A DNA stretch of 36,268 nucleotides, from contig CACYHD010000012.1 in assembly GCA_902774125.1 (NCBI GenBank), positions 1-36,268 on the forward strand, given 5' to 3'. Both the position numbers and the translations under genes were made by a program. Source of the DNA: an uncultured Lachnospiraceae bacterium (GTDB lineage Bacteria; Bacillota; Clostridia; Lachnospirales; Lachnospiraceae). The notes beneath the pieces are model-generated. The model made no database searches and had not been told where the DNA came from. It was given only the letters and a program-made list of their open reading frames with translations. Positions 5,881-31,518 of this stretch are shown here, one piece after another. How positions within the stretch are numbered: position 1 is the stretch's first letter; each line of letters starts with the position of its first letter.

Positions 5881-7116
5881 ATGAATGATTCGATGTATTA
5901 TGCGATGACTGCTATAGTGGCAATTATTTTGCTAGTTATGCAGAATCACGATATTATGTTTAGAATAGTTCGTGGCAAGATGGATACAGTGTGGATTTAC
6001 TACAAAATCCTATTGTATATGATGCTACTATTACACTCGACCGATGTTGTGTGGGGTGTTTTTTCTGTGCTAAAAATGCGCAACGTTCTTTTTGTAGATA
6101 CGCTGTTTTACTTTGCATCAATGGCTTTGTGTGTACTGTTCTGGACGCTTTATTCTGTAAGGTACGTAGGAAAAATGGGTGTGGCGGCCAAACTGCTCCA
6201 AGGCTTTAGCTGTTTGTTCTGCGTGGTTGTTATGGGATTAGTTATTGCCAATATTTTTGGCCCGGTGCTTTTCTGGATTGATGAAAACTGTACATATTCA
6301 ACAGAGCAAATGAGATGGTATATTCACTCCACTCAAATTATGCTATTGATTGCCATAAGTATTTACTGCTTCATGTCATATTTCCGCAAGGAGAATAGTC
6401 CTATTCAGAATAGATATAGAACTATTGGTTGGTTTGGCGTGATTATGTCGTCATTCTTGCTCGTTCAGCTATGGTTTCCACTGCTACCTTTATATACTGT
6501 TGGATATATGCTAGGTGCATGTATGGTTCGCACATTCGTTGTAAACGACGAGAAAGAGGAGTATAAGCACAAACTTGAGGATTCCCTTGCAAGAGAAAAA
6601 CAACAGCTTCAAGATCTGAAAGATATGCGTAGGGCTGCCTATGTTGACCGATTAACTGGGGTCAAAAACAAGAGTTCTTACGTTGAGATGGACGAGCACA
6701 AGGCTATCGAAATGCAAAAAGGCACTGCTGAGGAGTTCGCTGTTGCTGTTTTTGACATCAATGGACTCAAGTTTATTAATGACAATTACGGCCACGAGAA
6801 GGGCGATGAGTTTATTAAGAGCGGATGTAAGATTATTTGTAATCACTTCAAGCACAGCCCGGTATATCGAATCGGTGGCGACGAATTTGCTGTTTTGCTT
6901 GAGAAGGAAGAATACGCTAAGCGCCATGAACTACAGGATAGCTTTAATGCGATGATGGATCAGCACAACATTGATGGAGATATTGTTGTGGCTATGGGTA
7001 TGTCAGATTATAATAAAGAATCAGATTATACATTTAACGATATTTTTGCAAGAGCAGATGAGAGAATGTATAAGCGCAAGAGAGAACTTAAAAACAATAA
7101 GCAAGAAAGAGCTTAA
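5881..7116 (+). CDS. Membrane-bound diguanylate cyclase (GGDEF)
   Basis: The N-terminal half (about residues 1-215) has about six membrane helices with no recognised sensor domain. A coiled-coil linker (about 220-250) follows, then a GGDEF domain starting at AYVDRLTGVKNKSS. The active-site loop RIGGDEFAVLL is intact (GGDEF at about 331-335), and FDINGLKFINDNYGHEKGDE supplies the metal and GTP-binding residues. It should make cyclic di-GMP from two GTP. The inhibitory I-site (RxxD five residues before GGDEF) is absent: FKHS occupies the position. There is no EAL domain. The gene has a good AAGGGG site. Its 3' end is repeated in tandem downstream (see 7094-7161). LuxS follows on the same strand 68 bp later. 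Confidence 0.92.
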   Translation: MNDSMYYAMTAIVAIILLVMQNHDIMFRIVRGKMDTVWIYYKILLYMMLLLHSTDVVWGVFSVLKMRNVLFVDTLFYFASMALCVLFWTLYSVRYVGKMGVAAKLLQGFSCLFCVVVMGLVIANIFGPVLFWIDENCTYSTEQMRWYIHSTQIMLLIAISIYCFMSYFRKENSPIQNRYRTIGWFGVIMSSFLLVQLWFPLLPLYTVGYMLGACMVRTFVVNDEKEEYKHKLEDSLAREKQQLQDLKDMRRAAYVDRLTGVKNKSSYVEMDEHKAIEMQKGTAEEFAVAVFDINGLKFINDNYGHEKGDEFIKSGCKIICNHFKHSPVYRIGGDEFAVLLEKEEYAKRHELQDSFNAMMDQHNIDGDIVVAMGMSDYNKESDYTFNDIFARADERMYKRKRELKNNKQERA

Positions 7117-7161
7117 TAATAATCAGAAAAGAGCTTAGAATAATAAGCAAAAAACAATTTA
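7094..7161 (+). repeat. Degenerate 22-bp tandem repeat spanning the stop of the GGDEF gene
   Basis: Three imperfect copies (7094-7115, 7116-7137 and about 7140-7161; 17-18 of 22 positions match copy 1). Copy 1 encodes the protein end NNKQERA with its TAA. Copy 2, in a shifted frame, would encode NNQKRA followed by TAG. The unit therefore re-creates the gene end including a stop codon. Confidence 0.7.
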
Positions 7162-7184
7162 AAAAACAGAGCGAGGAGACATTA

Positions 7185-7709
7185 ATGGAATTAATACAAA
7201 GTTTTTCAGTAGATCACACAAAAATTGTGCCAGGTATTTTTACGAGCAGAGTTGATAGACTAGGTGACTATGCAGTTACTACATATGATATAAGAGTGAA
7301 GCATCCTAACAGGGAGCCGGTTGTTGATGTGGCAGCAATGCATACACTAGAGCACATTATTGCTACATATTTGCGCAATGACGAGGACTGGAAGGATGAA
7401 GTTATTTACTGGGGACCAATGGGATGTCTTACAGGTTTCTACCTAATACTAAAAGGCAATCGCAAGCCTCAGGAAATATATGACTTAGTGCTAAGGGCAT
7501 TCAAGTCAGTTGATGATGCAACTGAGGTTCCGGGAGCTACAGCAGAAAATTGCGGTACTTACTTGATGCACAATCTGCTTATGGCCAAGTATTACGCTGG
7601 CGAGTTTGCAGAGTACCTCGAGCAACATGCCGGTGACGAAAAGATTTTTGAATATCCTAAGTCAGAAAGATTGGTGACTGACCAAGGTCAGCAGTTTTTT
7701 GATTCATAA
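7185..7709 (+). CDS. luxS: S-ribosylhomocysteine lyase LuxS
   Basis: The 174-residue protein is full length. LuxS converts S-ribosylhomocysteine to homocysteine and DPD, the precursor of autoinducer-2, as part of the activated methyl cycle in the cytoplasm. The metal ligands are visible: His53 and His57 in HTLEH, and Cys123 in ENCGTYLMHNL. The catalytic Glu56 and Cys81 (GPMGCLTGFY) are also present. A GCGAGGAG site precedes the ATG. It is followed directly by a strong terminator, so the transcript ends here; the neighbouring pfs gene is not in the window. Confidence 0.97.
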   Translation: MELIQSFSVDHTKIVPGIFTSRVDRLGDYAVTTYDIRVKHPNREPVVDVAAMHTLEHIIATYLRNDEDWKDEVIYWGPMGCLTGFYLILKGNRKPQEIYDLVLRAFKSVDDATEVPGATAENCGTYLMHNLLMAKYYAGEFAEYLEQHAGDEKIFEYPKSERLVTDQGQQFFDS

Positions 7710-7712
7710 AAT

Positions 7713-7744
7713 AAAAAAGAGTCTTTGTTAAGACTCTTTTTTTA
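7713..7744 (+). terminator. Rho-independent terminator after luxS
   Basis: An A-tract and AGAGTCTT stem pair with AAGACTCT, followed by seven T residues; the loop is short (TGT-type). It begins within 5 bases of the luxS stop. Confidence 0.9.
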
Positions 7745-7773
7745 TGTATAATATTCAGCAGAGGTAAAAAATT

Positions 7774-29793: not shown

Positions 29794-29830
29794 ATTGGAA
29801 AAAAGTCGTAACAGCTAGAAAGGATTTATT

Positions 29831-30250
29831 ATGTATTTTTTGAGAACAGAAGATAGCTTTGATGCAGCACATTTCCTAAAAGGATACGAAGGCAAGTGCA
29901 GCAATATACATGGCCATAGATGGAAGGTTATTGTTGAGGTCAAGGGAGAAGATCTTAAGCAGGAAGGACCTAAGCGTGGTATGGTCGTTGACTTTAGCGA
30001 CCTCAAGGATTGACTATACAAGATTTGTGACAATATGGATCACAGTCTTATTATAGAAGAAAACTCTCTCAAGCCTGCTACAATGGAGGCGCTAAGAGAT
30101 GAGGACTTCGTCATTATAGAAGTTCCTTTCAGACCTACAGCGGAGAACTTCGCTAAGTACTTTTTTGAAAAAATCAAGGAAGATGGTTATGTAGTAAATC
30201 GCGTTGAGGTATATGAGACACCTAACAACTTTGCTGCATACGAGGAATAA
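29831..30250 (+). pseudogene. queD: 6-carboxytetrahydropterin synthase QueD, interrupted by in-frame TGA
   Basis: QueD makes 6-carboxy-tetrahydropterin from dihydroneopterin triphosphate in preQ1 synthesis. The N-terminal 60 codons hold the zinc ligands (DAAHFL and SNIHGHRW) and the catalytic Cys in GKCSNIHG. After FSDLKD a TGA (30011-30013) appears; the same frame then continues LYKICDNMDHSLIIEENS to the TAA at 30248-30250. Spacing to the catalytic His in MDHSL matches intact QueD with one residue at the stop, so this is a nonsense codon and not an indel. Without readthrough the product lacks the His and the substrate-binding Glu (RVEVYETPNN). The following bases are CTA, a leaky context for TGA in other systems. 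AAAGGA site present. Length if read through: 139 residues. Confidence 0.9.
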
Positions 30251-30252
30251 TA

Positions 30253-30906
30253 ATGAAGGTTGTAGAAATATTTACAAGTATAAACGGTGAGAGCAAGAGA
30301 GCCGGAGAGTTGGCTGTTTTTGTCAGGTTCGCGGGGTGCAATCTGAACTGCGCATATTGCGATACGAAGTGGGCCAATGAGCCAGACACAGAGTACAAGG
30401 ACATGACGCCTGAAGAGATAGCAGACTACGTTATCAAGCAGCAGGTGACTAACGTGACTATAACCGGTGGCGAGCCACTTTTGCAAAAAAATATAGAACA
30501 GCTTGTGGCGCTTCTTATGGGAAGCGGCCATAGGGTGGAGATTGAGACTAACGGCTCCGTTGATATAGACAGCATTGCGTGGAGCAAGCGACCAAGCTTT
30601 ACAGTTGATTACAAGTCTCCATCGAGTGGATGTGAGAGCAAGATGTTTATGGATAACTACAGCAAGGTGGGAGCAGATGACGTGGTCAAGTTCGTTGTCG
30701 GAAGCAAAGAGGACTTGGACAAGGCTAGAGATATAATAAAGCAATATCATCTGGACCAAAAATCTAATGTTTTTGTCAGCCCTGTTTGGGGTGATATAGA
30801 ACCGGCCCAGATTGTAGAATATATGATAGAAAACAAACTTAACGACATCAAGTTGCAGATCCAAATGCACAAGATTGTTTGGGATCCTGACAAGAGAGGA
30901 GTTTAG
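30253..30906 (+). CDS. queE: 7-carboxy-7-deazaguanine synthase QueE (radical SAM)
   Basis: 217 residues. It converts 6-carboxytetrahydropterin to 7-carboxy-7-deazaguanine by radical SAM chemistry. The [4Fe-4S] ligands are Cys29, Cys33 and Cys36 in [11 protein letters not shown]. The SAM-binding TITGGEPLL motif and VEIETNGS follow. The N-terminal IFTSINGES matches the family. Two bases separate it from the queD stop, and its GAGGAA site lies in the queD end, so translation is tightly linked. The length is near that of Bacillus QueE. Confidence 0.95.
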
Positions 30907-30907
30907 A

Positions 30908-31477
30908 ATGATAGACAAAAAAGCTATAGAAGAGCATATCAAAGGAATAATAGTAGCACTAGGTGACGACCCGGATAGAGAAGGGCTCAAGGAGACACCT
31001 CAGAGAGTGGCTGCAATGTACGAGGAAGTGTTCGAGGGAATGAACTACACTAACCACGAGATTGCGGAGATGTTCAACAAGACTTTTTCCGAGCAGATCA
31101 ACGAGGCGGACAATTCCAAGATTGTTGTAATGAAGGACATTGAACTTTTCTCATATTGCGAGCATCACATGGCGCTTATGTATGATATGACAGCCAATGT
31201 GGCATACATTCCTAAGGGCAAGGTTATCGGCCTATCAAAGATCGCTAGAGTGGTAGATATGGTGGGCAAGAGACTTCAGCTTCAGGAAAAAATCGGACAG
31301 GACATCGCTGATATTATATCTGAGATTACAGGCAGCGAGGATGTTGCAGTAACTATTGAGGGATACCACAGCTGCGTTTCTGCAAGAGGAATCAAAAAGC
31401 AAAAGACTAAGACATATACAGCAGAATTCAGAGGCAAGTTTAAGGACGACACATCATTGCAGTTGTATTTGAAATAG
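30908..31477 (+). CDS. folE: GTP cyclohydrolase I FolE
   Basis: The start is the ATG at 30908, one base after the queE stop, with GAGAGGAG upstream; an 11-codon longer frame inside queE is less likely. FolE converts GTP to dihydroneopterin triphosphate, the QueD substrate. Zinc ligands are Cys84 and His87 in YCEHHMAL and Cys156 in [18 protein letters not shown] ([13 protein letters not shown]) and [12 protein letters not shown] helices are conserved. At 189 residues it has normal length. Its place inside the que operon indicates dedication to preQ0 supply, though it can also feed folate. Confidence 0.96.
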
Positions 31478-31518
31478 AGTTTAAGAATGACACTTCATTG
31501 TGGTCATACTTGAAATAG
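31437..31518 (+). repeat. 41-bp tandem duplication of the folE 3' end
   Basis: Copy 1 (31437-31477) encodes [12 protein letters not shown] and stop. Copy 2 (31478-31518), directly adjacent, would encode FKNDTSLWSYLK and stop. Most of the 41 positions match; the differences show that the duplication is not recent or is under no constraint. Confidence 0.9.

Follow-up and report, generated by a model that had tools for sequence, protein, structure and literature searches.

Tandem duplications across gene stops in a Lachnospiraceae genome and its relatives

The closest described relatives of the arrays reported here are bacterial minisatellites, or variable-number tandem repeats (VNTRs), with which they share unrelated units arranged head to tail, copy numbers that differ among relatives, and direct repeats at the breakpoints. 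The subject of this work is a set of short tandem duplications, each containing the end and the stop codon of a gene, in a 36,268-nucleotide stretch of DNA from an uncultured, gut-type Lachnospiraceae bacterium (the window: assembly GCA_902774125.1, contig CACYHD010000012.1, positions 1 to 36,268) and in related genomes. They differ from minisatellites in that the class is set by position, the unit containing the stop of its gene, and in that stop-spanning cases outnumbered start-spanning ones six- to sevenfold.

Mycobacterial MIRUs likewise place repeat units at gene junctions, but PMC12548453 describes them as short mobile repeats whose insertion sites are start codons. The units described here, in contrast, copy the end of their own gene and had no dispersed copies in the sample. 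The TAACTGA repeats of Beggiatoaceae, as presented in part of PMC4679880, differ in being one heptamer family found mainly upstream of starts. The tandem repeats in Borg elements are described in sections of PMC9879509 as recent and independently arising, with lengths that are divisible by three within genes and mostly not outside them. Independent recent arrays, and a contrast in unit length between genes and the DNA outside them, were likewise observed here, yet the Borg repeats are termed pervasive and no stop-spanning class is described in those sections. Among the papers listed by literature searches, none dealt with stop-spanning tandem duplications, although this does not prove that none exists.

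Tandem arrays at gene stops

The gene for GTP cyclohydrolase I, folE, is located at 30908..31477 on the forward strand, as are all window features given below; its open reading frame (ORF) was listed from 30875, and Pfam PF01227 was matched over 30875-31477 (E = 1.8e-64). Tandem Repeats Finder (TRF) identified a 41-bp unit at the folE end, present in 2.0 copies that were 80% alike. Copy 1 (31437..31477) comprises two bases, the last 12 folE codons and the stop TAG, and finishes exactly at the stop. Copy 2 (31478..31518) is out of the folE frame and is presumably untranslated. A first-pass annotation, made from the sequence alone, had placed a repeat at exactly 31437-31518, and the analysis bore it out. 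An alignment anchored at the stop scored 42, compared to a maximum of 28 in 2000 shuffles (p = 0.0005). The C-terminus encoded by copy 1, QLYLK followed by the stop, is common to folE of four relatives (G004, G007, G008 and G010), more distant single-copy relatives in which copy 2 is absent. In the same four genomes, a sequence resembling a ribosome-binding site lies no more than 4 nt from the folE stop. Copy 2 deviates at residues kept in the relatives, as drift would; the possibility that it represents the ancestral end was ruled out, as copy 1 agrees with the relatives.

The survey covered 808 kb of the genome of the window (G000), made up of the window and 39 usable stretches, and approximately 2.7 Mb of relatives. 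Genus relatives sampled were G020 (595 kb), G021, G004, G007 (20 kb), G008 and G010, and order-level relatives were G034, G037, G039 and G040. Eighty named loci were added, the best 80 of 520 folE matches, which by title were mostly from Lachnospiraceae or Eubacterium. Gene calling relied on a simple in-house script, which overlooks some genes and sets some starts wrongly; within the window, it missed 17720-18841 and shortened the GGDEF gene. Tandem similarity was assessed by a lag scan with a threshold score of at least 17, in which starts were scanned with the same geometry mirrored, and by TRF with a score of at least 50 and a period of 15-100.

In the test that had been proposed from the window, tandem similarity at stops exceeded that at starts and in shuffled sequence. 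In the pooled lag scan, 27/2772 stops reached the threshold, compared to 4/2693 starts (Fisher p = 3.4e-5), 13/2198 random coding positions and 0/2772 shuffled stops. The 27 cases had units of 13-74 bp and include two sites of the window, folE and a C1 protease gene. The counts were 15/561 stops and 2/546 starts in the genome of the window (Fisher p = 0.002), 5/438 and 1/428 in G020, 2/474 and 0/459 in G021 combined with the four folE relatives, and 5/1299 and 1/1260 in the remaining sample. Without the genome of the window, 12/2211 stops and 2/2147 starts were recovered (Fisher p = 0.013). TRF arrays in 573 genes of that genome comprised 14 that spanned a stop, two that spanned a start and one that touched both, and no stop- or start-spanning TRF array was found in 315 genes of the four folE relatives. 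The bias toward stops over starts is real, and it is a recurrent pattern of a known process. One of the rare start-spanning arrays (L102:5091-5165) has a 34-bp unit with an ATG and a GC-rich block across the called start. TGA is the rare stop in the sample of the window's genome: the higher-scoring called genes (n = 433) ended in TGA in 19 instances, TAA in 316 and TAG in 98.

Each unit was compared by BLAST with the window and the 39 stretches, approximately 42% of the genome, and no further copies were found apart from a marginal 22-bp match of the C1 protease unit (E = 0.01). A dispersed repeat family or MIRU-like element was ruled out within those sequences. The units are unrelated and therefore point to a process and not to one repeat family, in agreement with the first-pass annotation.

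Copy number among relatives

Copies were head to tail and similar beyond chance, weakly so at a GGDEF site and not so at a claimed CotH site (both below), and copy number at the same site varied among relatives. In the folE locus L198, ATAATTCAG occurs twice, 19 bp apart, flanking the stop, and in its relative L201 a further 19-bp copy brings the count to three; this pair was not polarised as to the older state. In G021, a 29-bp unit containing the stop of another gene is duplicated, whereas G001, G011 and G018 carry a single copy. Five of the eight genomes searched for this locus matched, one of which (G016) has an unrelated insertion, and three were without a match. In the single-copy genomes G011 and G018, AGTAA occurs twice at a distance of exactly 29 bp, and in G001 the corresponding repeat is GTAA; the second instance is the stop itself. 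Short direct repeats were thus present at the breakpoints of both events, 9 bp at the 19-bp distance and 4-5 bp at the 29-bp distance. The G021 unit also holds a GGAG that precedes the ATG of the next gene, and the last copy keeps this GGAG in place. Another array of G021 has a different copy number or length in G011 and G016. The stop of the peptidyl-tRNA hydrolase gene is duplicated in G020, and drifting copies distinct from that duplication were found at the stop of this gene in G006 (L307) among 16 gene ends read (16 of 20 loci, the four unmatched by the motif being left out).

Copy-number differences with breakpoint repeats were observed for these two events in other genomes, and the three arrays retained in the window (below) probably arose likewise. 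The comparisons support the slippage in an earlier suggestion of slippage near the transcript end. The second part of that suggestion is not supported: in 10 of the 26 cases with a called neighbour, the next gene was co-directional and lay, by the estimated gap before duplication, within approximately 67 nt, so that transcript ends are not required.

Other arrays in the window and its genome

Three of the four repeats claimed for the window are real: those of folE, of a C1-family cysteine protease and, more weakly, of a GGDEF protein. The protease, which has a lectin-like domain (22377..24377; PF00112, PF18560), ends in a TRF array at 24363..24430 that crosses the stop at 24375-24377, with a 31-bp unit in 2.2 copies that were 94% alike. 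The array claimed there is strong as a whole and was retained, although the stop-anchored alignment was weak (p = 0.03) because just 15 nt of the unit are coding, stop included. The GGDEF gene (5881..7116; PF00990, E = 2.5e-22) has an imperfect 22/25-bp array across its stop at 7114-7116. This array is degenerate (7076-7165 or 7092-7154, 72-78% alike) and has a TRF score of 82. Its stop-anchored alignment was weak (p = 0.04), and the site scored too low to be counted in the genome-wide lag scan. The fourth claim, a weak repeat of a third CotH gene at 28632-28710, was rejected. The region after ORF 27963-28640 (28621..28720) was at chance level (p = 0.21) with no TRF row even at a score of 30, and that ORF had no Pfam match; the CotH protein by Pfam is ORF 26556-27929. 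The stop of ORF 26556-27929 gave p = 0.0075 by way of a short match approximately 40 nt downstream, with no tandem unit. Eight window stops were tested in all, and the four other than those of folE, ORF 26556-27929, the protease and the GGDEF gene gave p = 0.09-0.65.

A queC array that the first-pass annotation had missed (32234..32333; TRF, 31 bp in 3.3 copies) belongs to the same local array tendency. Its first base immediately follows the queC stop, and it is not stop-spanning. As RNA it folds with z = -6.5 relative to shuffles and could be a terminator-like or regulatory structure.

Other repeats were noted in this genome. A dispersed intergenic family of approximately 63 bp (TGCATAC...GTATGCA, partly palindromic) forms head-to-tail arrays, with sites at L020:15733-16340, L101:12225-12770, L005:14024-14380 and L113:13890-14098, and gave 41 BLAST hits in 8/40 sequences. 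An intergenic G-rich array at L005:13847-13972 has units like GGGGGGATTTTTGTGT and is possibly quadruplex-forming. Repeats such as ACAGAAGCA and GAAGAAACAACA occur at 12829-13395 of the window, inside the 2401-aa ORF 8970-16175.

Slippage, tolerance and rival explanations

The best explanation, to which we assign a probability of roughly 0.78, is that the arrays are ordinary slippage duplications that are tolerated at stops and removed at starts. Replication slippage between short direct repeats would create short tandem duplications throughout non-coding DNA. Where the unit contains a gene end and its stop, copy 1 would still encode the complete C-terminus and stop, and whatever lies beyond the last copy, the ribosome-binding site of the next gene or a terminator, would keep its own junction. 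Both outer junctions being kept, elements shorter than the unit would survive in one copy. Such a change would be near neutral and hence persist, and the extra copy, presumably silent, would drift. A duplication that spans a start, on the other hand, would add a start or lengthen the N-terminus and would be removed by selection. The asymmetry between stops and starts would follow because copy 1 keeps the protein end at stops, whereas a new start is added at starts. Selection, and not the rate of duplication, would then set the stop bias. Arrays inside coding sequence had a period divisible by three in 188/204 cases, as is typical where selection has filtered slippage. The explanation of the stop bias is probably an ordinary one, and its components call for no new mechanism.

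Comparison of stops with neighbouring intergenic DNA gave a mixed result for the control that had been proposed with the original observation. An initial test in the window's genome aligned the 48 nt before a point to the 100 nt after it and required a score of at least 32. This threshold was reached at 8/564 stops, 0/549 starts and 3/510 interior points, and at 9/168 points drawn at random from gaps no shorter than 168 nt, where long multi-copy arrays weigh heavily. By this measure random long-gap points were richer than stops. Under uniform placement, however, an excess at stops was seen. Arrays that exceeded 200 nt, lay at the end of a stretch or occupied a gap with no called neighbour were excluded from the placement tests, and 97/120 arrays (up to 200 nt) could be placed. 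With all gaps included and each TRF array counted once, 32 arrays spanned a stop compared to 9.4 expected, and three spanned a start compared to 9.8 expected. Array edges were in excess 10-60 nt inside the gene end (28 vs 8.1 expected) and 0-10 nt after it (9 vs 3.3), close to expectation 10-100 nt downstream (21 vs 21.5) and depleted beyond 100 nt (30 vs 57). Part of the intergenic DNA therefore appears to be constrained or miscalled.

A stricter placement model, in which starts were forbidden and gaps were shortened by the extra copies, reduced the excess in array counts at stops to approximately twofold, beyond the asymmetry between stops and starts, and this excess is not fully explained. 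In pooled gaps of up to 150 nt, 24 stop-spanning arrays were observed compared to 13.6 expected, and in the window's genome alone the figures were 10 and 5.4 (p = 0.012). The excess over intergenic DNA may stem from constraint on promoters, leaders and terminators; genes left uncalled within gaps and a coding copy that diverges more slowly may also contribute.

Several results weigh against tolerated slippage as the whole account. Under simple tolerance, stops and the adjacent intergenic DNA should carry arrays at equal density, and the excess that was seen is therefore not predicted: in pooled gaps of up to 300 nt under the stricter model, 27 stop-spanning TRF arrays (a count distinct from the 27 of the lag scan) were found compared to 12.7 ± 3.0 expected. 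The excess held among near-identical arrays (at least 93% identical, gaps of up to 300 nt: 8 vs 3.9 expected, p = 0.022), so that slower divergence of copy 1 cannot account for it fully. Nor is composition the explanation, because direct-repeat pairs across stops were no commoner than in intergenic DNA (47/531 vs 23/193 in the window's genome). Unit length was divisible by three in only 4/27 stop-spanning cases (p = 0.04 against one third), compared to 43/100 intergenic arrays (p = 0.007), a difference that tolerance does not predict. Finally, differences between copies at codon positions 1, 2 and 3 numbered 21/212, 10/223 and 31/229. With copy 1 constrained and copy 2 drifting, an excess at position 3 would be expected; instead, position 2 was low (p = 0.003 against a uniform distribution and p = 0.046 against our own assumed drift model).

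The unexplained excess could indicate that gene ends are a genuine hot spot at which tandem duplications arise more often, for instance through the departure of ribosomes from the transcript at the stop or through stop trinucleotides that, in A/T-rich ends, serve as breakpoint repeats. The excess over uniform placement ranges from twofold in short gaps to more than threefold over all gaps, and the stop itself lies within the breakpoint repeat in G011, G018 and G001. Junctions fell -6 to +4 nt from the stop end in 11/27 cases, which is striking by eye, but 7.8 were expected given gap length and the clustering was not significant (p = 0.085). In the window's genome alone, at gaps of up to 150 nt, the excess was not significant among arrays of higher similarity (5 vs 3.3 for those at least 88% alike, p = 0.19; 4 vs 2.4 for those at least 93% alike, p = 0.18), although at gaps of up to 300 nt it reached p = 0.03 for arrays of at least 93% (5 vs 2.1). 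The richness of random long-gap positions and the scarcity of arrays more than 100 nt from stops also argue against a hot spot, which we consider unlikely. The corresponding claim, that in some Lachnospiraceae stops are a hot spot for new 20-50 bp duplications, tied to translation termination or to such trinucleotides, and gene ends grow by re-encoded copies faster than other non-coding DNA, is doubtful to the same degree. Intergenic DNA is itself rich in arrays, in favour of slippage as a general source. Noncoding array density was approximately 220-230 per Mb in the window's genome and in G020, and intergenic arrays were commoner in these two than in the other genus members sampled (G007, with 20 kb, set aside). 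Loss of repair genes as the cause of this density was rejected: mutS, mutL and recJ were over the cut-off in 7/7 genomes and sbcD in 6/7, the missing one being in G007. All four are present in the genome of the window, where mutL is cut by a contig end.

Two functional roles had been suggested for the repeats, and neither was sustained. As backup stops, second copies would catch ribosomes that read through, and extra copies do often close with a stop in their own frame. Most second stops are out of the gene frame, however, because so few unit lengths are divisible by three, and no sign that additional stops are selected emerged from a survey of eubacteria (PMC6764699); selection for backup stops is accordingly very improbable. 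Message protection was not borne out either: of the three arrays in the window, two fold no more stably than shuffles (z = -0.39 and -0.29), with the GGDEF array at z = -4.1.

The copies might also be scars of a mobile element or of recombination with foreign DNA, in which the 3' end of the gene was restored and the old end left behind. Models for such a scar are the att duplication made by integrases and the gene-end replacements of fungal mitochondria. Some G020 copies differ mainly at third codon positions (4/5 differences in peptidyl-tRNA hydrolase and 5/6 in an E1-E2 ATPase), as a scar might; orthologues of the ATPase share at most 33% identity over most of their length and are too distant to polarise the copies. 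The copies at the window sites adjoin, with nothing between them and hence no element or integrase, folE copy 2 departs at conserved residues as drift would, and the single-copy relatives fit duplication in place, all of which makes a scar most unlikely. Chance similarity in A/T-rich gene ends accounts for the CotH site and nearly for the stop-anchored GGDEF alignment, but for the set as a whole it was ruled out by the shuffled stops, none of which reached the threshold that 27 real stops did, and its probability is close to nil.

Duplications of this kind provide a recurring, measurable route of spacer growth in which the gene's own end is copied. The stop can be shifted tens of bases from the next start while the sequence before that start is kept, and translational coupling within operons would presumably be loosened as a result. 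Should the surplus relative to neutral DNA prove mutational, translation would be shaping DNA stability at stops.

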